From an uncultured Lachnospiraceae bacterium (GTDB taxonomy: Bacteria > Bacillota > Clostridia > Lachnospirales > Lachnospiraceae), in the NCBI GenBank assembly GCA_947178125.1, contig CAMWXB010000009.1, positions 1 to 64,000 on the forward strand: a stretch of DNA of 64,000 nucleotides, in the 5' to 3' direction. Of the stretch, positions 2,355 to 24,750 are shown piece by piece. The first letter of the stretch is position 1. Every line of letters begins with the position of its first letter. Both the position numbers and the translations under genes were made by a program. The notes under the pieces are model-generated. The model made no database searches. It worked only from the letters and a program-made list of their open reading frames with translations, and was not told the DNA's origin.

Positions 2355-2427
2355 TGTATACAATAATCCAATGTGATAAAGCTTTCACTATAAAAACACA
2401 GAGGCTATGGAAAGGTGTAAAAACATT

Positions 2428-3846
2428 ATGAAAAAAATATTGTACAACCAGCACACGCATCTGCTTGAAGAAAATCAATATGTCTACGGTCTTCAGGACG
2501 TTCCGTCACCGCAGCTGTTCCGGGAAATTTTTCCCTATGATATGGTTCCCAAGATTACATACAACCACCGTCATGTACCGATCAATATGCCTGAAGAAAT
2601 CTTCATTTCAGACACAACTTTCCGGGATGGCCAGCAGTCCAGAACACCCTATACGGTCGAGCAGGTCGTTGCTATTTATAAAATGCTGCACCGCCTTTCC
2701 GGCCCGAACGGCATTATCCGGCAGAGCGAATTTTTCGTATATTCGCCAAGAGACCGCGATGCCATCGAAAAATGTATGGAACTCGGCTATGAATTTCCGG
2801 AAATAACGACATGGATCCGCGCAACAAAAGAAGACTTTGCCCTTGCAAAAAGCATGGGTATTCAGGAGACCGGTATTCTCGTCAGCTGTTCTGACTACCA
2901 TATTTTCAATAAAATGGGGCTTACGAGAAGTCAGGCCATCGACAAATATCTCCGCGTCATCCAGGAATGTCTGGATGCGGGACTGCGTCCGCGATGCCAC
3001 TTTGAAGATATCACACGGGCAGATTTTTATGGCTTTGTCATTCCCTTTGCCATAAAACTGAAAGAACTCTCCGATGAATATCAGATTCCGATTAAAATAC
3101 GGGCATGCGATACATTGGGACTTGGTGTTTCCTATCCCGGCGTTTCCCTGCCGAGAAGCGTTCCGGGTATCATATACGGTCTGTCCCATTACGCAGGCAT
3201 TTCAAGCGATATGATAGAATGGCACGGTCACAATGACTTTTATAAAGGCGTTTCAAATGCGGGGGCGGCATGGCTTTACGGCGCTTCTACCGTCAATTGT
3301 TCTTTGCTTGGTATCGGCGAACGGACCGGTAATGTTCCTCTGGAAGCAATGGTCTTTGAATACGCTTCTTTCAAAGGTTCATTCGATGGTATGGACCCAA
3401 CGGTCATTACAGAAATTGCCGATTTTATTACAAAGGATACAAACTACACGATTCCGCCGATGACCCCATTTGTCGGTGAAAACTTCAACCTGACAAAAGC
3501 CGGTATCCACGCTGACGGCCTTCTGAAAGATGAAGAAATTTATAATATTTTTGACACCGGAAAACTGCTCAACCGTCCTCCGCTCGTTGCCATCAATAAC
3601 ATCTCCGGCGTGGCCGGAATCGCATACTGGCTGAACCAGTACTATAACAACACGGGCGAATCTGCAATTTCCAAGAAAGACCCCCTCGTTCTCTATATCA
3701 AAAAGTGGGTGGATGAACAATATGCGGACGGAAGGATTACCTATATAACAACTTCTGAATTAGTATCTTTAGTCGAGCAGTATCAGGCTCAAAATAATAT
3801 TTCTCAGTCAATAACCCCGCCGCAGACAGCGGAGCATGGAATTTGA
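2428..3846 (+). CDS. DRE-TIM metallolyase: isopropylmalate/homocitrate/citramalate or Re-citrate synthase-like enzyme
   Basis: Acyl-CoA/oxo-acid condensing enzyme of the LeuA/NifV/HMGL-like superfamily. The TIM-barrel signature DTTFRDGQQ lies near residue 65, HFEDITRAD follows, and the metal-binding HGHND and the GIGERTGN signature lie in the C-terminal half of the barrel. The product is about 472 residues and lacks the C-terminal LeuA allosteric domain, so it is probably not a standard leucine-pathway LeuA. Homocitrate, citramalate or Re-face citrate synthase activity are all possible; clostridia that lack Si-citrate synthase use such an enzyme. An ATG at 2407 is in frame, but the ATG at 2428 has GGAAAGGTG ten bases before it. 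It is monocistronic, with its own promoter and a downstream terminator. Superfamily is certain, substrate is not. Confidence 0.75.
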   Translation: MKKILYNQHTHLLEENQYVYGLQDVPSPQLFREIFPYDMVPKITYNHRHVPINMPEEIFISDTTFRDGQQSRTPYTVEQVVAIYKMLHRLSGPNGIIRQSEFFVYSPRDRDAIEKCMELGYEFPEITTWIRATKEDFALAKSMGIQETGILVSCSDYHIFNKMGLTRSQAIDKYLRVIQECLDAGLRPRCHFEDITRADFYGFVIPFAIKLKELSDEYQIPIKIRACDTLGLGVSYPGVSLPRSVPGIIYGLSHYAGISSDMIEWHGHNDFYKGVSNAGAAWLYGASTVNCSLLGIGERTGNVPLEAMVFEYASFKGSFDGMDPTVITEIADFITKDTNYTIPPMTPFVGENFNLTKAGIHADGLLKDEEIYNIFDTGKLLNRPPLVAINNISGVAGIAYWLNQYYNNTGESAISKKDPLVLYIKKWVDEQYADGRITYITTSELVSLVEQYQAQNNISQSITPPQTAEHGI

Positions 3847-3947: not shown

Positions 3948-3977
3948 AAAGAACGCCATATTCCGGGCGTTCTTTTT
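3948..3977 (+). terminator. Rho-independent terminator
   Basis: AAAGAACGCC (3948-3957) pairs with GGCGTTCTTT (3966-3975), with an 8-base loop and extra T residues after the stem. It separates the synthase gene from the VTC cassette. Confidence 0.8.
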
Positions 3978-4069
3978 ACATACTTTTTTCATTCTTTGAA
4001 CACAGAACCTTCATATTTTTGCCATATGATGGTTCTGGTAAATGTTACAGAAAGGAGCCAAACACCCGC

Positions 4070-4741
4070 ATGGATTTTCGCCATGAATGGAAGCATGAAA
4101 TCAATTTATCGGACGTGATCACACTAAGACAGCGCCTTCGGGCAGTTGCACAGCCGGATACACATACGATCGATGGCAGCTATGAAATCCGAAGCCTTTA
4201 CTTTGACAACCTGTCGGATAAAGCCCTGCGTGAAAAGCTGAACGGCGTCAACGTCCGCGAAAAATTCCGTATCCGATATTATAACGGAGATACTTCCTGT
4301 ATCCGTTTGGAAAAGAAATACAAAAAGGGCAGTCTCGGCAATAAAACAAGTGCGCTTTTGACAAAAGATGAAGCACGGGAAATTGTGAACGGCCATTTCG
4401 ATTGGATGCGGCAACACAAAGAACCGCTCATACAGGAATTTTATACCAAAATAACGGCACAGGGACTCCGGCCAAAAACCATTGTGGATTACACGAGGGA
4501 GCCTTACATATATCCGCCCGGCAATGTCAGGATCACCATCGACCGCCACATACGGACCGGCCTTTCCCACACGGATTTTCTGGACCCCGACTGCCCCACG
4601 GTTCCCATCAAAGACGATCCGGTCATTCTGGAAGTAAAATGGGATGCCTGGCTGCCGGATATCATCCGTAATGCCGTACAGCTGGAAAACTGCCATCTCA
4701 CCGCTTTTTCCAAATACGCGGCCTGCCGCATGTACGACTGA
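4070..4741 (+). CDS. VTC-domain (polyphosphate polymerase-like, CYTH tunnel fold) protein
   Basis: The 223-residue protein consists essentially of a VTC domain, the catalytic fold of the yeast Vtc4 polyphosphate polymerase and relative of triphosphate-tunnel enzymes. Residues that line the tunnel in the family are in place: K8 in an E-x-K-H start, the R67-x-R69 pair, E81-K82-K83, K92, R143, R154/R159, the E188-x-K190 pair and K215 in a FSKY motif. It has no membrane segment or SPX domain. The ATG at 4070 is chosen because an AGAAAGGAG sequence precedes it, though with rather long spacing; an upstream ATG at 4019 has no good site. It begins a three-gene set with a DUF4956 membrane protein and a CotH-like secreted kinase. 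Whether it makes polyphosphate or another phospho-polymer is unknown. Confidence 0.85.
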   Translation: MDFRHEWKHEINLSDVITLRQRLRAVAQPDTHTIDGSYEIRSLYFDNLSDKALREKLNGVNVREKFRIRYYNGDTSCIRLEKKYKKGSLGNKTSALLTKDEAREIVNGHFDWMRQHKEPLIQEFYTKITAQGLRPKTIVDYTREPYIYPPGNVRITIDRHIRTGLSHTDFLDPDCPTVPIKDDPVILEVKWDAWLPDIIRNAVQLENCHLTAFSKYAACRMYD

Positions 4742-4779
4742 CCAATTTTAATTCAAATTTCTGAAAAGGAGAATTCATT

Positions 4780-5451
4780 ATGACTTTTAACGACATTTTT
4801 AAATCAAATTTTCTGGAGAATGTTACCGGCGTCAGCATCTTTGACACATTGACAGCGTTAATACTGGCTTTCTGCCTCGGTCTTTTTATCTTCTTTGTCT
4901 ATAAAAAGACTTTTTCCGGCGTTATGTATTCCTCCAGCTTCGCCGTTACGCTGGTAGCCCTGACGATGATCACAACGCTGGTCATTCTTGCCGTAACATC
5001 CAATGTCGTGCTCTCCCTCGGTATGGTCGGTGCCCTGTCTATTGTCCGTTTCCGTACCGCGATAAAAGAGCCTCTGGATATTGCTTTTTTATTCTGGTCT
5101 ATTGCCGTAGGCATCGTTCTGGCCGCAGGCCTGATTCCTCTGGCCGTAATCGGCAGTCTCTTTATCGGCATTTTCCTGCTTCTATTTGTGAATCGGAAAC
5201 CGCATACCAATCCTTATATCATCGTTATTGATTGTACGGACCATGAAAGCGAACTGAAAGCGCTCGCTTATCTAAAAGAGCAAGTCAAGCGCGTTGTTGT
5301 AAAAAGCAAAACTGCAAGAAAAGGGGCCATTGAACTAAATCTGGATATTCGACTAAAAGATGACAATACAGACTTTATCAATACGCTCTCCGAAATGGAT
5401 GGTATCAACAGTGCCGTACTGGTCAGCTATAACGGTGACTACATGGGATAG
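4780..5451 (+). CDS. DUF4956 membrane protein
   Basis: Uncharacterised integral membrane protein of 223 residues. About four hydrophobic segments occupy roughly residues 20-140, including the conserved GMVGALSIVRFRTAIKEP loop; the C-terminal 80 residues form a soluble, probably cytoplasmic, ferredoxin-like domain. It starts after an AAAAGGAG site and lies 38 bases after the VTC gene and 9 bases before the CotH-like gene, so the three are almost certainly one transcript. In other bacteria DUF4956 proteins recur beside VTC and CotH genes. A role as membrane partner or channel for the VTC product is inference. Confidence 0.85.
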   Translation: MTFNDIFKSNFLENVTGVSIFDTLTALILAFCLGLFIFFVYKKTFSGVMYSSSFAVTLVALTMITTLVILAVTSNVVLSLGMVGALSIVRFRTAIKEPLDIAFLFWSIAVGIVLAAGLIPLAVIGSLFIGIFLLLFVNRKPHTNPYIIVIDCTDHESELKALAYLKEQVKRVVVKSKTARKGAIELNLDIRLKDDNTDFINTLSEMDGINSAVLVSYNGDYMG

Positions 5452-5460
5452 GAGGCCGCT

Positions 5461-7116
5461 ATGTCAGCAAGTAAATATATCGACAAAATCTGCTGTATCG
5501 CGCTCATTTTTGCTTTGTTCATTACTTTTCTTTTATCCAATATAGCACAATCAGAGGTGTTGCCAGTCAGCGCAGCCGCAGGATATGAATCCCGGCTGTT
5601 CAATACCGCGGCCGTGCATACGATTGATATCGTTATGGATGACTGGGATTCTTTTCTCGAAAACTGCACGGACGAAAAATATGTGGATTGTACGGTCATC
5701 ATCGACGGCGATGTATACCGAAACGTTGGGATTCGGGCAAAAGGCAATACTTCCCTGTCCTCGGTCGCCAATTATGGAAATGACCGGTACAGCTTCAAAA
5801 TAGAATTTGACCATTATGACAACGCTAATACCTACTATGGGCTGGATAAACTCTGCCTGAATAATATCATTCAGGATAATACTTATATGAAGGACTATCT
5901 TACTTACACGCTCATGTCTTCCTTTGATGTAAATGCACCTCTCTGCAGCTATGCCTACATAACGGTAAACGGTAAGGACTGGGGACTTTACCTTGCTGTT
6001 GAAGCCGTTGAAGAATCCTTTTTACAACGCTGTTATGGCAGCGATTATGGAGAACTCTATAAACCGGACAGCACGACGATGGGCGGCGGCCGCGGTAACG
6101 GAAGAAATTTTGACCAGGAAAAATTTGACGAACAGGGAGACTTTCCTCCGCACGATAGAACTGATATGCCTGAAAGACCTGACCGGTCCGACCCAGCCGA
6201 TATGTCTGAAAGGCCCGATTTGCCAGACTGGAATGAAAATGAATCTGATGGCCGAAGGTTTTCCGAATATGGCGATAGGATGCCGCCCGATGAATTTGAC
6301 GGCACGATGCCCGGCGTTAAGGATAATGTCATGGGCAGCAGTGATGTTTCCCTTATTTATACGGATGACGAATACGACAGTTATCCCAATATTTTTGAAA
6401 ATGCCAAAACGAATATTACAGACAGTGATAAGGACCGCCTGATTGCTTCCCTGAAGCTGCTGAATGAAGGTGAAAATATCGCGGATGTCGTCGATATGGA
6501 TGCCGTTATCCGCTATTTCGTGGTTCATAACTTTGTTCTGAATTTCGACAGCTATACCGGCTCCATGATACACAATTATTATTTGTATGAAAAAGACGGA
6601 CAGCTATCCATGATTCCATGGGATTACAACCTTGCTTTTGGCGGATTTAAGTCAGAATCCGATGCTACGGCACTGATCAACTATCCCATCGATACGCCGG
6701 TTTCCGGCGGAACCATTGATTCCAGGCCGATGCTCGCATGGATATTCAACAACGAAGAATATGTGGAACAATACCACCACTATTTTTCTGAATTTATTTC
6801 CGAATACTTTGACAGCGGCTGTTTTACAGATATGATCGACTCTCTATCGGATATGATTTCGCCTTATGTGGAAAAAGATCCGACAAAATTCTGTACCTAT
6901 CAGGAATTTCAGGAGGGCGTTACCACTTTAAAGGAATTTTGTATCCTGCGCGCCAAAAGCATAAGCGGACAGTTAAATGATTCTATTCCCTCTACAGATA
7001 CCGAGCAGGCCCAGGACGATTCTTCCCTGATCGATGGCAGCCACCTTTCCATTTCGGCTATGGGCGCCATGGATAAACGGATGGAGCCAAATATTTCTGA
7101 AGAGCGCAGTTTCTGA
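5461..7116 (+). CDS. Secreted CotH-like kinase family protein
   Basis: Member of the CotH family of atypical protein kinases, named after the Bacillus spore-coat kinase. Residues 1 to about 38 form a signal peptide or N-terminal anchor (hydrophobic core ALIFALFITFLLS). The CotH fold follows, with the IRAKGNTS motif near residue 90 and the MIPWDYNLAFGG catalytic-region motif near residue 385. Between them lies a low-complexity acidic insert (about residues 200-285) rich in D, G, P, R and E with PERPD-like repeats. There is no C-terminal membrane helix. It is the last gene of the VTC-DUF4956-CotH set, and its stop codon lies inside a terminator hairpin. Substrate unknown; a surface or coat protein is the natural guess. 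Confidence 0.85.
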   Translation: MSASKYIDKICCIALIFALFITFLLSNIAQSEVLPVSAAAGYESRLFNTAAVHTIDIVMDDWDSFLENCTDEKYVDCTVIIDGDVYRNVGIRAKGNTSLSSVANYGNDRYSFKIEFDHYDNANTYYGLDKLCLNNIIQDNTYMKDYLTYTLMSSFDVNAPLCSYAYITVNGKDWGLYLAVEAVEESFLQRCYGSDYGELYKPDSTTMGGGRGNGRNFDQEKFDEQGDFPPHDRTDMPERPDRSDPADMSERPDLPDWNENESDGRRFSEYGDRMPPDEFDGTMPGVKDNVMGSSDVSLIYTDDEYDSYPNIFENAKTNITDSDKDRLIASLKLLNEGENIADVVDMDAVIRYFVVHNFVLNFDSYTGSMIHNYYLYEKDGQLSMIPWDYNLAFGGFKSESDATALINYPIDTPVSGGTIDSRPMLAWIFNNEEYVEQYHHYFSEFISEYFDSGCFTDMIDSLSDMISPYVEKDPTKFCTYQEFQEGVTTLKEFCILRAKSISGQLNDSIPSTDTEQAQDDSSLIDGSHLSISAMGAMDKRMEPNISEERSF

Positions 7117-7136
7117 AACTGCGCTCTTCGATTTTC
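7099..7136 (+). terminator. Terminator overlapping the CotH-like stop codon
   Basis: GAAGAGCGCAGTTTC (7099-7113) and its exact complement (7115-7129) are separated by one base, and the TGA stop lies at the hairpin apex. A short T-rich stretch follows. Confidence 0.7.
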
Positions 7137-9362: not shown

Positions 9363-12300
9363 TCAATTCTCCAAATCTTCTTTCTTTTTCCTGTCCCTTG
9401 TAAAAATGTCATAAATGCAGGGAATAACGATCAATGTCAGCAGTGTACCGTAAATCAATCCGCCAATCGTTACAACAGACATCGGCTTCGACATATCCGC
9501 TCCCATATCATCGCTGAAAGCCATCGTACTCAATGCCAAAATCGTTGTCAGCGCTGTCATCATGACCGGACGGATTCTTGTTTTTCCGGCGGTAACAATG
9601 GCCTCCTTTTTTTCCATGCCTTCCGCGCGCAGCTGGTTCATATAATCTACGATGACGATACCATTATTAACAATAATACCCGACAGCATGACAAAACCGA
9701 TCATTGCGATAACGCTCACTTCACTTCCGCTGATGACAAGTCCCATAAATCCCCCTGTAAAAGCAAGCGGAATCGTGAACATAATGATAAAAGGCGAAAG
9801 CAGCGACTGGAACTGTGCCACCATGATCAAATACATGAAGATCAGTGCAAGGAGCAGCATCAGATAGACCTGTTCCATTGCATCATTTATCGTTTCGTTC
9901 TCACCGCTCATCGTAAAGCTGTAACCGCTTGGCATCTCATAGTTTTGCAGCGCTTTTTCCACATCGTCGGATACAAAACTGATATTATGACCATCTGCAA
10001 CAGAGGCGGTCACACCGATATAACGGCTCTGTTCCACACGATTGACCGATTTGGGGGCCTGTGTGCTTTCAAAGACGGCAATATCGGAAAGTTTGATTTT
10101 TTCTTTCGTACCGTCCTGTTTGCTTCTTTCAATTTCCAAATCCTTGACCAGATTTCTGGTCAGCTCTAAATCCTTTGCATTTTTCACATACACATCGTAC
10201 TCTTCTATCTCTGTTTCCAGTGTCGTAGCGCTCGTGGCATCCGCAAGCTTTGCCTGTATCTGCTGAAAAATCTGTGCAACTGTCAATCCATGCTCGATTG
10301 CTTTATTTCTGTCAATTATGATACGCAGCTCCCCGGTAGATTCTTCCAATCCGTCGGATACGTCTGCAGTTCCTTCCACACTTTCGACAATTGCCGCAAC
10401 ATCTCTTGCGATCTCCTGCAGTGTATCCAGTTCACGCCCTTTAATTTGAACGGTAATGCCGCTTCCGCCCAGTGCGCTCATATCCATTGTCGATGTCTCA
10501 ATCGCCGCTTCTGCCTGTGCCATTTCCAGAATATCCGCAATATTTACTTCAATGTCTCGTGCAATTTCCAGATTGTCCCTTTCCTTATCTTCCCGCAGAG
10601 AAATATAAAGTGAAGTAACGTTCGTAGAGGAATTTCCGCCGCCCGTCAGCATGCCCATGTTGGAAGTGCTTGCCATCGCACCGACATCCACAACTTCGTC
10701 CATTTCCATCAGTTTTTCCACTACCCGGTCCGTTACCTCCGCTGTCTCGGCAAGCGGCGTATCTTTCGGCAGCGTCAACGTCATGCTGATCTGTGTACTG
10801 TCCATATCCGGCATAAAGGCCGTTCCCTTTGCAAAAGACGCTTTCATGCTGACGACTAAAAGAACAATCACTAACAGCAGTACGACCGGCTTGAACCGCA
10901 GCGACAATCTCAATATTTTTTCATAGAATTTCATCAATACGCCAAAAAATTTTCCTTCTTTCTGCTCTCTGGCTTTGGAAAGCATTCCTGCTGCCATAGC
11001 AGGAACTACCGTCATGGCTATCAACAGACTTGCAAACAAAGAATAAGCAATCGTAAGGCCCATATCGACGAATAACTGTCTCGTGATGCCTTCCGTAAAA
11101 ACAATCGGAAGAAAGACGCATACCGTTGTAAGGGTAGATGCAATAATGGCTCCTGCTACCTCTCCCGCACCTTTTACGGCTGCCTCCTTCGCCGAATATC
11201 CTTCGCTTCGCATCCTGTAAATATTTTCGATAACAACAATGGAGTTATCCACCAGCATACCAACACCGAGCGCCAACCCTGACAAAGATATAACATTCAG
11301 TGTTATTCCGCTGAAATACATACACACAACTGCCGTGATCAGACTGATCGGAATCGAACATGCAACGACCGCCGTTGGACGCCAGTCTTTCAAAAATAAG
11401 ATCAGGATCAGGACCGCAAGAATGGCGCCGAACAATACATTATTGATAATGGAATCCATGATAAAATCAATATAAATTCCCTGATCCATCAGCGTAATCA
11501 GAATCAAATCTTCATTTTCTGCCTTTAACTGCTCAAACTTGTCCAGAATCCTGTCGGAAACATCGCCCGTGGAATAACCGGTCTGCTTCTGGATTGTGAC
11601 CATTATGCCGGGCGCGCCGTTCACATTTGCATAAATATCGCCGGAATTATCCGTCATGAACACATCCGCCACATCGCCGAGCGTAATGATATCAACACCG
11701 TCCATTTCGGTATTGATAAGCGGCATTTTTTTCAAAGCCTCAATATCTTCCGGTTTATCGCCTACCCTGACAAGATAGTCAATTCCTTCTTCCGTAACAT
11801 AGCCCGCCGGCATGGAAAAATTCTGTGCCGCCAATAGGGATTTCACCGTATCGACAGTAAGAATGCCATTCATATCAGCCTGGTCATACGCATTTTCCCG
11901 TGCCTCCTCCAGGTCTTCTTCCCCGTCCAATATCTGCTGTAACGCATCGGCAAGCTGTTCGGCGGTCTCATTTAGCTGCTCCTCGCCATCTTTTAACTGC
12001 TCCAATGCGGCATCAAGCTGTTCCTGACCGGCTTCAATCTGTTCTTCGCCCGCCTCCAGCTGTTTTTCACTCGCTTCTAACTGCGTTTCTGCCGTAGTAA
12101 TCTGAAGTTCACCGATGCTGATGACTGTCTGGGCATTGGCAAACTCAATGGCTGCTGTCAGATTCCCCTGGTATAGTTCAACAAGAGCGTTGTCCAGTTT
12201 ATCGATGTTGTCTTCAATCGTAGGAAGCTGTGCCTCCAACGCCGCGATCATTGTCTCCTGCATCGTGACCGTTCCGACAAGTTCTTCTCTCTGTGCTTTC

Positions 12301-13547
12301 ATCGCTTCTATACCGGCCGCTCCGCCCATCGCTTCAATAGCGCCGCTCAACGATTCTTTCATAGCCATTACACTTGCGATGATCTCCATATCGCTCATAC
12401 TGCTCATATCTACCGGAAGCAGCTGAGAAATAATCAATTTCTGCTCTTCTGTAAGAGAATTGTTAACATCCAACGACAGACTGTCTATCATATTAATCGT
12501 GGCAACCGCACTTTCATACTGTGCTACAGCCTCATCAATCTGCGTTATGCCGGCCTGTGCCGCTTCCTTCGCTGCCTGAGCCGACGCAATCTCCAGCGTC
12601 AGATGCGTTTTGGCCGCCTCCAGATCCGCTTTCGCCGTCAGAATTTCCGTCTCCGCTTCCGCCAGCTTTTTCGTCATTTCGCTCTTCTGATTGTCAAGTT
12701 CACTCTTTCCTTCCTCAAGCTTCGTTTTATTTTCTGCTATCTCAGCCTTTCCATCCTCCAGCTTCTGTTTATTTTCTTCCAATTCCACACGACTGTCATC
12801 GAGTTCCTGCTGGCTGTCCGCAATCTCCTGTTTACTATCCTCCAACTCCGTTCTCGCATCGGCCAGTTCTGCCTGACCGTCATATATCTCCTGTTTGCCG
12901 TCGGCCAGTTCCTGCTCCGCTTCCTTCATTTCTTCATCAATGGAAGAAAAGACCTGCTCGTTAATGGCATCGATTTTTTCCTGACGAATGATCACATTTA
13001 CGCTTTCCTCGAACAGACCGGTCGCGCTGGCCGAAGCTACGCCCTCGATACTTTCCAACTCCGGAAGAACAATGTTCTGTGTCATTTCACTGACTTCCGC
13101 GTCAGTCATACTCGTATTACCGACTGCCGCAATCATGATGGGCAGCATGTCCGGATTCAGTTTCATAATAATAGGGCTTCCAACAGAATCATCCCAATAG
13201 CTTTTAATTTGGTCCAGAGTTTCCCGAATTTCCAGAGAAACTGCATTCATATCCGCCGACTGTGCAAATTCCAGAATGACCATCGAATAATTTTCACTGG
13301 AGACCGAGCTGATTCCTTCTATATTGCTGACCGTCGCCATAGATGCCTCTACGGGCTGCGTTACTACCATTTCCACTGTCTCCGGACTTGCTCCGGGATA
13401 CGTTGTCATGACAATAACATAAGGCAGACTGATACTCGGTAACAAATCCGTAGACATCCTCGTAAAAGAAACAACGCCAAGGACAATCGCCAGAATGACC
13501 GCTACCAGAACGGTATAGGGTTTTTTTACACTGAATTTTCCTAACAT
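9363..13547 (-). CDS. Very large RND (AcrB/HAE1-type) efflux transporter with coiled-coil insert
   Basis: A 1394-residue proton-driven RND exporter, about 350 residues longer than AcrB. It opens with the first transmembrane helix and the LPSISLPYVIV and PGASPETVE porter motifs. Between about residues 200 and 553 sits a long insert of repeated E-L-x-x-x-x-x-E-L type segments, predicted coiled coil. The remaining porter domain and the transmembrane blocks follow, including GLALGVGMLVDNSIVVIENI and GIVVNNGIVIVDYMNQLR. A Gram-positive cell has no outer membrane, so the coil may replace a fusion protein or reach the cell wall. The start ATG has AAGGAG upstream. A TetR gene lies directly downstream. 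The substrate is unknown. Confidence 0.92.
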   Translation of the reverse strand: MLGKFSVKKPYTVLVAVILAIVLGVVSFTRMSTDLLPSISLPYVIVMTTYPGASPETVEMVVTQPVEASMATVSNIEGISSVSSENYSMVILEFAQSADMNAVSLEIRETLDQIKSYWDDSVGSPIIMKLNPDMLPIMIAAVGNTSMTDAEVSEMTQNIVLPELESIEGVASASATGLFEESVNVIIRQEKIDAINEQVFSSIDEEMKEAEQELADGKQEIYDGQAELADARTELEDSKQEIADSQQELDDSRVELEENKQKLEDGKAEIAENKTKLEEGKSELDNQKSEMTKKLAEAETEILTAKADLEAAKTHLTLEIASAQAAKEAAQAGITQIDEAVAQYESAVATINMIDSLSLDVNNSLTEEQKLIISQLLPVDMSSMSDMEIIASVMAMKESLSGAIEAMGGAAGIEAMKAQREELVGTVTMQETMIAALEAQLPTIEDNIDKLDNALVELYQGNLTAAIEFANAQTVISIGELQITTAETQLEASEKQLEAGEEQIEAGQEQLDAALEQLKDGEEQLNETAEQLADALQQILDGEEDLEEARENAYDQADMNGILTVDTVKSLLAAQNFSMPAGYVTEEGIDYLVRVGDKPEDIEALKKMPLINTEMDGVDIITLGDVADVFMTDNSGDIYANVNGAPGIMVTIQKQTGYSTGDVSDRILDKFEQLKAENEDLILITLMDQGIYIDFIMDSIINNVLFGAILAVLILILFLKDWRPTAVVACSIPISLITAVVCMYFSGITLNVISLSGLALGVGMLVDNSIVVIENIYRMRSEGYSAKEAAVKGAGEVAGAIIASTLTTVCVFLPIVFTEGITRQLFVDMGLTIAYSLFASLLIAMTVVPAMAAGMLSKAREQKEGKFFGVLMKFYEKILRLSLRFKPVVLLLVIVLLVVSMKASFAKGTAFMPDMDSTQISMTLTLPKDTPLAETAEVTDRVVEKLMEMDEVVDVGAMASTSNMGMLTGGGNSSTNVTSLYISLREDKERDNLEIARDIEVNIADILEMAQAEAAIETSTMDMSALGGSGITVQIKGRELDTLQEIARDVAAIVESVEGTADVSDGLEESTGELRIIIDRNKAIEHGLTVAQIFQQIQAKLADATSATTLETEIEEYDVYVKNAKDLELTRNLVKDLEIERSKQDGTKEKIKLSDIAVFESTQAPKSVNRVEQSRYIGVTASVADGHNISFVSDDVEKALQNYEMPSGYSFTMSGENETINDAMEQVYLMLLLALIFMYLIMVAQFQSLLSPFIIMFTIPLAFTGGFMGLVISGSEVSVIAMIGFVMLSGIIVNNGIVIVDYMNQLRAEGMEKKEAIVTAGKTRIRPVMMTALTTILALSTMAFSDDMGADMSKPMSVVTIGGLIYGTLLTLIVIPCIYDIFTRDRKKKEDLEN

Positions 13548-23301: not shown

Positions 23302-24750
23302 CTAATTTTCAATTTCATTCCCACTGACCGTATTACCGCTGACAGTAGTCATATTCTCCGTACTGCTCCTGGAAGAACTCCGTGTACTTTGGCTTGAAGA
23401 ACTTCTGTTTCCACTGACCGTATCGTAATATTCCGGTTCCAGATCGGTAAAGGAATAGGTAATATCCTGTCCGTCATCATAGAGATAGACTGTATAGCTC
23501 TTTGCCTGATATCCGGTCTTTCTCAAGGTAATCGTATGGCTTCCTGTCACCTTCTTGAAATTGACCGGGGAAATACCTATATAATTGCCATCCAGATAAA
23601 CTTCCACATCCTGAGGAGCGTCAATATAAACTCTGTTTCCCGTTACCGCATTCTCTACTTCGCTGCTCTCACTGCTGTTTTCATTGTCTTTGCTGCTCTC
23701 GCTCTCATCTTCCGTCTCTTTCTCATCTTCCTCTTCCAATGTAAAGCTGATGCTCGCATATGCAGAACCTACCTGAATATGTTTCGTCAGGGACTGATAT
23801 CCCTCCGCTTCCAGCGAAATCCGGTGAATACCATAGGTAAGCTCCACCTCCTGGCTGATATCGACCGCTTCTCCGTCAATCTTTACTGTCGCTTCGGAAG
23901 GATTTACAGAAAATAAAATTTTTCCTGTTTTATCCGCTATAATTTCAAGATCCCCTACATCCAGCACGACCTCTTTATCTCTTTCAATCGTTACTTCTTT
24001 CAGACATTTTGCATTTCCGTTAGATAAAGATACCTGATAGCTTCCTTCCGGTACCGCCAGAAGCATATTATCCGTTATCTGCTGAATCACTGTGTTTCCG
24101 ACTTCAATCCAACCGCCCACTAATGCCTGATCATTGGAAAGACGAAGATAACCATGACCCTTCTGCACTTTAATACTGTATATTTCATGGTCAATACCGC
24201 TGAATGTCAGAACATCCTTATTTACGATATCCATTACTTCGACCCGTCTGCCATCCGATAAGACCACTACCTGGTCCGACAGGGAATATGTACCCGAACC
24301 AATCGTCGCTGTCCTGTTCATACCGCCCAGATCATAATTTTCAATATTATCATATACCCATGACTGCGGAGACAGCTGCACGCTCGCAAGCCTCTTCTTT
24401 CCTCTTAAAAAAGTGATGTCTACAATATCCCCTTCTTTGATCTGAGACATCGACATAGGACCTTCGTATCTGTCCTTCACATAAGTTGTCCCATCATAAG
24501 AAAGAGTATACTGTTTTCCTGTCGCTATGTTCATGAACGTAATATTTCCACTGTCAAAATCCGTAGAAAGTACTACCGCCGTATCTGCCGAATCGTAACT
24601 TCCGGCTTCCGCTACGACAAAATCGGTCCCTATCGTATTCTGGTCGTTCTCCCTGGCAAGACCGATATTGCTTGCCTGGGATGTACAACCGGTGATCACG
24701 AGCGCTAATACCATAACGCCAGTTACAAATGCTGATAATCTCTTGTACAT
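23302..24750 (-). CDS. PEGA-domain lipoprotein
   Basis: A 482-residue secreted lipoprotein of unknown role. The signal peptide ends with the lipobox VITGC (Cys22), so the protein should be anchored to the outer face of the membrane. Two PEGA-like beta domains can be seen: one around residues 260-325 (PSEATVKIDGEAVDISQEV then GIHRISLEAEGYQS) and one around 365-435 (VEVYLDGNYIGISPVNFKKV then GSHTITLRKTGYQ). They are separated by a Glu/Ser-rich linker, and the C-terminus is a serine-rich tail with a repeated TVSGN motif. It follows the CotS-like gene by 20 bases, suggesting one transcript. Confidence 0.85.
   Translation of the reverse strand: MYKRLSAFVTGVMVLALVITGCTSQASNIGLARENDQNTIGTDFVVAEAGSYDSADTAVVLSTDFDSGNITFMNIATGKQYTLSYDGTTYVKDRYEGPMSMSQIKEGDIVDITFLRGKKRLASVQLSPQSWVYDNIENYDLGGMNRTATIGSGTYSLSDQVVVLSDGRRVEVMDIVNKDVLTFSGIDHEIYSIKVQKGHGYLRLSNDQALVGGWIEVGNTVIQQITDNMLLAVPEGSYQVSLSNGNAKCLKEVTIERDKEVVLDVGDLEIIADKTGKILFSVNPSEATVKIDGEAVDISQEVELTYGIHRISLEAEGYQSLTKHIQVGSAYASISFTLEEEDEKETEDESESSKDNENSSESSEVENAVTGNRVYIDAPQDVEVYLDGNYIGISPVNFKKVTGSHTITLRKTGYQAKSYTVYLYDDGQDITYSFTDLEPEYYDTVSGNRSSSSQSTRSSSRSSTENMTTVSGNTVSGNEIEN

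Follow-up and report, generated by a model that had tools for sequence, protein, structure and literature searches.

A near-inseparable VTC–DUF4956 gene pair in Lachnospiraceae and the exchangeable surface proteins encoded beside it

A 64,000-nucleotide stretch from an uncultured Lachnospiraceae bacterium (contig CAMWXB010000009.1 of assembly GCA_947178125.1, positions 1 to 64,000; hereafter the window) carries at 4070-7116 a three-gene operon, or cassette, for a stand-alone VTC-type tunnel domain, a DUF4956 membrane protein and a CotH-type atypical kinase. VTC and DUF4956 form a near-inseparable, co-diverging pair across the genomes that we sampled, and among close relatives of the window the third gene encodes either CotH or a Cthe_2159 protein behind one and the same N-terminal anchor. 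Our reading of the operon is a phosphate-polymer machine that is bound to the membrane and has a surface effector docked on it; we give this reading a probability of about 45%.

Results

Operon layout

A first-pass annotation made from the window's sequence had proposed a three-gene cassette with intergenic gaps of 38 and then 9 bases, and both the list of open reading frames (ORFs) and Pfam uphold it. The genes form a compact same-strand operon in the order VTC, DUF4956, CotH, and a purine-rich stretch lies upstream of each of the three start codons (by eye). The VTC ORF is listed from a TTG at 4019 (4019-4741), and the ATG at 4070 was read from the sequence.

4070..4741, + strand: VTC-type tunnel (TTM) domain, 223 amino acids (aa), stand-alone (PF09359, 138.5 bits vs a cut-off of 23, E = 3.4e-40; Vtc4 profile match; residue mapping)
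4780..5451, + strand: DUF4956, 223 aa, apparently MgtC-like (PF16316, 48 bits vs 30.6, E = 1.5e-12; AlphaFold2 model; Foldseek)
5461..7116, + strand: CotH-type atypical kinase, 551 aa (PF08757, 215 bits vs 23.8, E = 2.1e-63; B. cereus CotH structure 5jd9, 2e-13; alignment)
5461..5568, + strand: shared N-terminal anchor, also on Cthe_2159 ectodomains (hidden Markov model (HMM) searches, clade consensus)

Pairing of VTC and DUF4956

We scored the presence of both families at E ≤ 0.001 in 149 genomes of the window's own phylum, 198 genomes from a second phylum and 14 named controls (361 in total); the phylum names, Bacillota and Actinomycetota, were deduced from locus L129 and from near relatives that bear names, and the controls may overlap with the sampled genomes. 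DUF4956 occurs in 20 of the 149 own-phylum genomes and VTC in the identical 20, and the same holds for 20 of the 198 genomes of the second phylum. Among the controls both families occur in the same three (Bacteroides ihuae, C. glutamicum and Methanosarcina acetivorans), such that 43 of the 361 genomes hold both families and none holds just one; the C. glutamicum genome matches CotH as well. The two genes are also neighbors: in the own-phylum sample, 27 of the 30 DUF4956 genes have a VTC gene at most 4 kb away, in every case on the same strand (CotH is also within 4 kb for 19 of the 30), and all 21 in the second phylum adjoin a VTC gene on the same strand, with the adjacency odds in both phyla ignoring kinship among genomes. 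The grouping that the first-pass annotation mentioned is thus recurrent rather than random. Two of the three own-phylum misses are at contig ends and the third is on contig C68 of the window's own genome (G000).

Over 26 pairs, the pairwise distances of VTC and DUF4956 are correlated at r = 0.943, a value reached by none of 2000 permutations, and when partners were permuted within genomes, 5 of 384 arrangements (the real one included) were as good as the real one. Although the genes themselves were already known, their genome-level co-occurrence looks new here. The own genome holds six DUF4956, five VTC and seven CotH genes and four complete sets, three of which are ordered CotH-VTC-DUF4956. 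Its paralogous cassettes are on contigs C43, C22, C25, C68, C53 and C11 (L020-L025); the one on C43 is beside a LytTR/GHKL two-component pair, and the one on C25 is near DUF6077 and FAD amine-oxidase family genes, plus a gene that by eye looks MBOAT-like.

Two kinds of third gene behind one anchor

At least 588 relatives were available, and the named loci examined here are the best 80 of these and hence close kin. In 79 of them VTC adjoins DUF4956; L103, the one exception, has just 243 bases of upstream sequence. The third gene, taken as a same-strand neighbor no more than 2.5 kb away, is CotH in 57 loci, which thus have VTC, DUF4956 and CotH together; it is Cthe_2159 in 22, neither in one (L114) and both in none. 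CotH as the defining member, which the first-pass annotation implied, therefore describes most close loci but not the 22 with Cthe_2159 in its place, and phosphorylation by CotH cannot serve to define the system. According to excerpts of PMC6712302, Cthe_2159 proteins are of the beta-helix type and reportedly bind celluloses and polygalacturonic acid. In the wider own-phylum sample, five of the eight VTC-DUF4956 pairs without CotH adjoin a Cthe_2159-cluster gene instead (the one member scanned matched at 6.1e-100).

At the close loci, the first ~35 residues of the CotH and Cthe_2159 third proteins belong to one sequence family, with the clade consensus MSTHKxIDxIC-(hydrophobic)-LFMNGxxLGI. An HMM of the CotH N-termini detected all 22 Cthe_2159 N-termini (best 1.1e-20) and, among 4590 ORFs, none outside both families at E ≤ 1e-3 (best 0.042); in the reverse search, the Cthe_2159-anchor HMM detected 55 of the 57 CotH N-termini. 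Identity within the anchor is 41.4% between CotH and Cthe_2159 proteins vs 40.8% among CotH proteins. A search with the anchor alone through 150 whole genomes of the family gave matches in 29 genomes at E ≤ 0.01 and in 25 at E < 1e-9, although some of these genomes may equal or nearly equal those from which the anchor was derived, such that the two anchor searches are not fully independent. All 25 strong matches, of which the window is one, adjoin VTC-DUF4956 (15 on CotH and 10 on Cthe_2159), and the four weak ones are unrelated. None of the own genome's other six CotH genes was matched, and its three cassettes in CotH-VTC-DUF4956 order carry no anchor.

On a quickly built tree of VTC plus DUF4956 from 102 loci, for which SH-aLRT was the only support measure, the ectodomain changed at least seven times, three of the switches being forced by strongly supported branches, and the shuffled mean is 26.7 changes. 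The five Cthe_2159-cluster genes of the wider sample lack the anchor, several of them with lipoprotein-like starts. Because the anchor is shared by both kinds of protein here and is mostly absent outside the clade, it is a property of this operon type and not of either ectodomain. The best explanation for its retention would be a binding partner whose gene lies next to its own. A swapped ectodomain behind one kept anchor looks new here, and our searches of the open-licence PMC literature gave no paper that describes the shared anchor or CotH/Cthe_2159 exchange.

The VTC domain

A profile of 28 VTC relatives matches the solved yeast Vtc4 chain 3g3q at 7.7e-17, and its six top structure matches are Vtc4 chains, with Vtc2 and Vtc3 ranking lower. 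Thirteen positions of the Vtc4 tunnel were chosen beforehand; 12 are identical in the window's protein in the printed alignment (K200, R264, R266, K281, K294, Y359, R361, R373, E426, K428, S457 and K458) and K455 is not conserved. These 12 are also invariant across 28 aligned VTC rows, so the earlier claim of intact tunnel residues holds apart from K455 and extends to the homologs. E279 and D377, picked up afterwards, are likewise identical. The kept positions include R264, R266 and E426, which were changed in the yeast Vtc4 mutant complex (R264A/R266A/E426N) described in excerpts of PMC9911596. The window protein has one Pfam family over its cut-off, no SPX match and no hydrophobic segment. 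We considered whether VTC replaces a missing PPK1 and rejected this, as PPK1 is present in 9 of 20 cassette genomes and in 2 of 23 others; one cassette genome without it is G298.

Such a domain might instead be a tunnel-fold enzyme with another product (a triphosphatase or nucleotide enzyme) that makes no polyphosphate. The kept residues are largely those common to the tunnel superfamily, K455 is lost, and in the open-licence PMC literature we found no assay of any bacterial VTC protein, all of which suits this alternative. Against it stands the ranking of the structure matches, in which Vtc4 chains take the first six places above Vtc2 and Vtc3, and we consider it very unlikely. The same literature gave no demonstrated role for any prokaryotic VTC protein.

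The DUF4956 protein

DUF4956 was annotated at first pass as a four-helix membrane protein, and in addition to the PF16316 match it is predicted to have four or five membrane helices and an ACT/ferredoxin-like C-terminal domain (AlphaFold2 model with predicted local distance difference test score 77.1; top Foldseek match 2lqj, E = 2e-3). The window protein is under the MgtC/SapB cut-offs (Pfam 10.7 of 31.4 bits; NCBIfam 29.3 of 214 bits, E = 5.9e-7), 17 of 30 DUF4956 members match NF007431 at E ≤ 0.01 (best 5.5e-9), and the best match of the DUF4956 profile among solved structures is at E = 2.4. Judged by sequence and predicted fold, DUF4956 appears to resemble MgtC. MgtC is usually regarded as a regulator, and a channel is therefore one of two readings of DUF4956.

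The CotH protein

D363 and D388 of the window's CotH align with the B. cereus CotH motifs. From motif and spacing (23 vs 25) they probably correspond to D228 and D251 of B. subtilis CotH, either of which inactivates the protein when changed, according to excerpts of PMC7821199. A hydrophobic segment begins ~9 residues in, and this N-terminus looks closer to a membrane anchor than to an ordinary cleaved signal; of the 'secreted CotH' annotated earlier, the family thus stands by PF08757 and the secretion is better replaced by a putative anchor. An acidic insert lies at about residues 205-293. Across the anchored CotH relatives, the alignment has an acidic or Gly/Pro/Met-rich insert within the kinase domain, and a second hydrophobic segment ends several of these proteins, to which the Cthe_2159 consensus seems alike.

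In the local CotH set, each of the 26 ORFs starts with a hydrophobic segment, with three of the 26 rows of the local profile (L058, L066 and L076) lacking a Pfam CotH match at that place. The spore-type CotH proteins of G124, G139 and G066 C3 have no N-terminal membrane segment. The VTC-DUF4956 pair is present in 18 of 21 own-phylum and 15 of 16 second-phylum genomes that have CotH. A rule that membrane-segment CotH occurs only with the pair nearly holds; it is broken by the lipoprotein-like CotH of G072, and G455, with a partial CotH match, may be another exception.

Linkage to Pel

The first-pass annotation called the cassette undescribed, which does not stand for the three genes as such: excerpts of PMC7112168 report a Pel accessory set in which cotH, a polyphosphate polymerase gene and DUF4956 are contiguous with pelDEADAFG, and excerpts of PMC12345266 (2025) report single deletions of SIR_1592-1594 in S. 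intermedius with partial mutant phenotypes. Only the pairing and the anchor swap look new. In those excerpts, deletion of SIR_1592 (taken here as the DUF4956 gene) or SIR_1594 (CotH) altered both aggregation and Pel, with Pel up and aggregation down for SIR_1592, and the authors' analyses found no three-gene synteny beyond the Pel locus.

In our samples, PelG is over its cut-off in four of the 149 own-phylum genomes, two of them cassette genomes, and is thus absent by that cut-off from 18 of the 20 cassette genomes, including the window's own genome (93% complete). The window's cassette is not contiguous with pel genes and has other genes as neighbors. The cassette is not Pel-specific, contrary to the 2025 statement, and with PelG under its cut-off in most cassette genomes we reject a Pel-specific role as a general explanation. 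More broadly, the genes might be an accessory set that modifies or regulates one secreted polysaccharide, Pel or similar. The published pel linkage and mutant phenotypes favor this, as do one Pel-linked cassette copy in the sample (G105 C5) and a gene with weak glycosyltransferase matches directly after CotH in L064. Against it stand the scarcity of PelG and the finding that, among gene clusters common to at least four of the 80 close loci, none looks polysaccharide-like (by eye on the first 60 residues; the loci were not searched for PelG), and we regard it as distinctly unlikely. For NELoc-2 of C. perfringens, excerpts of PMC2879425 list VTC, CotH and 'tubulin/FtsZ' proteins of 226 and 222 aa, and the 'tubulin' there is probably DUF4956.

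Regulatory genes near the cassettes

Of the 80 close loci, 32 have genes for response regulators and histidine kinases within 5 kb, as do 25 of the 45 with sufficient flank. They are OmpR-type according to Pfam on one pair and NCBIfam on three regulators; a PhoB/PhoR identity could not be assigned, as the five proteins scanned are under the listed NCBIfam cut-offs. No two-component gene is among the listed ORFs neighboring the window's cassette. A TTCA-N6/7-TTCA repeat, picked post hoc, occurs upstream of VTC in 18 of 31 two-component-linked loci vs 8 of 47 others (shuffles 0.6-0.8), and the window has two TTCA copies 22 bases apart (by eye). In L052-L076 and L077-L156, two-component genes together with the repeat near VTC, a candidate operator, mark many cassettes.

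A rival reading of the operon is a regulatory module that exports nothing, in which an MgtC-like DUF4956 would sense or set the ATP or phosphate state, VTC would be its internal phosphate- or polyphosphate-handling partner, and the pair would tune a surface kinase or polymer. The MgtC likeness, the rise of Pel with reduced aggregation upon loss of SIR_1592 and the OmpR-type neighbors are all consistent with this. Such a module alone would leave unexplained both the one anchor on unrelated ectodomains and the retained polymerase active site, and we consider it somewhat unlikely.

Operon boundaries and flanks

Two inverted repeats were found by eye from the sequence, and the operon looks closed off by them.

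3950..3977, + strand: terminator-like inverted repeat followed by a T-run, upstream operon boundary
7100..7129, + strand: inverted repeat spanning the CotH stop codon, candidate terminator

By Pfam the flanks look unrelated: HMGL-like and Hsp20 genes precede the operon, and it is followed by a short ORF and a PNPOx-like gene. The HMGL-like aldolase (2407-3846) is related to homocitrate/isopropylmalate synthases, far under the listed NCBIfam cut-offs. Elsewhere in the window are a 1394-aa protein that by eye resembles an RND efflux pump carrying a long insert rich in Glu, Gln and Asp (9363-13547) and a 482-aa protein with a C-terminal PEGA domain (23302-24750). We also considered a known RNA element and rejected it, since Rfam at gathering scores yields only three tRNAs in the window.

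Discussion

In the phosphate-polymer machine that we favor, VTC would use ATP to polymerize phosphate on the inner side of the membrane, and DUF4956 would hold VTC there and gate or conduct the chain, as yeast VTC does with its membrane part. Through its conserved inner tip (MSTHKxIDxIC), the anchor would dock the third protein on the pair, and the product or a signal would then reach the ectodomain outside, be it the kinase-like CotH or Cthe_2159. By analogy with yeast VTC, which according to excerpts of PMC9911596 couples polyphosphate synthesis to translocation via a basic membrane channel, a split bacterial counterpart with DUF4956 as its membrane part would be a straightforward way to read a pair this close. 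A more specific version, in which the polyphosphate made inside is threaded out, used by CotH as phosphoryl donor and bound by Cthe_2159 as an acidic polymer, is improbable; delivered polyphosphate is proposed as the donor because an external CotH has no evident ATP supply.

Several points weigh against the phosphate-polymer machine. Polymerase activity, export and the outside chemistry are all predicted functions, and the MgtC likeness of DUF4956 also allows a regulator. According to excerpts of PMC12345266, S. intermedius deleted for SIR_1593, the polyphosphate polymerase gene, still aggregated and made Pel, which is a real objection; the different outcome for SIR_1592 and SIR_1594 indicates that the members of the pair are not equivalent in that species. 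The own genome has PPK1, and VTC is thus not its sole candidate polyphosphate enzyme. The pairing has exceptions in the own genome (a lone VTC on C11 and CotH-DUF4956 without VTC on C68). The third gene is not general, as no CotH lies within 4 kb of 8 of 27 own-phylum and 7 of 21 second-phylum pairs, and the anchor is clade-specific, being carried by 5 of 31 CotH- or Cthe_2159-type genes in the wider sample. What the first-pass annotation observed is confirmed and its interpretation is partly supported. With a partner present in all 43 VTC genomes of our samples and an anchor that would mark the machine's surface proteins, a domain of unknown function becomes a testable complex. If polyphosphate is indeed delivered outside, this would suggest how a surface kinase works without ATP and would give bacteria a second route of polyphosphate synthesis.

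Four known systems offer comparisons. Like CotH spore-coat kinases, the window's CotH has the fold family and, by alignment, the two catalytic aspartates, but it differs in its N-terminal membrane segment and acidic insert. DUF4956 has a weak sequence match to MgtC/SapB and, by prediction, may have in common with it the membrane helices and a C-terminal ACT-like domain, but it scores far under the MgtC cut-offs and is paired with VTC. The Gram-positive pel accessory set cotH-PPP-DUF4956(-DUF4832), represented by SIR_1592-1594, comprises the same three neighboring families, whereas the window's genome is without PelG and its clade has shared-anchor swapping and often two-component neighbors. 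The eukaryotic VTC complex likewise combines a Vtc4-type tunnel domain (12 of 13 positions) with a membrane partner, whereas the window's set is split over two genes, has no SPX domain, no vacuole and a third, surface gene, and its membrane part appears to be MgtC-like rather than a Vtc membrane domain.

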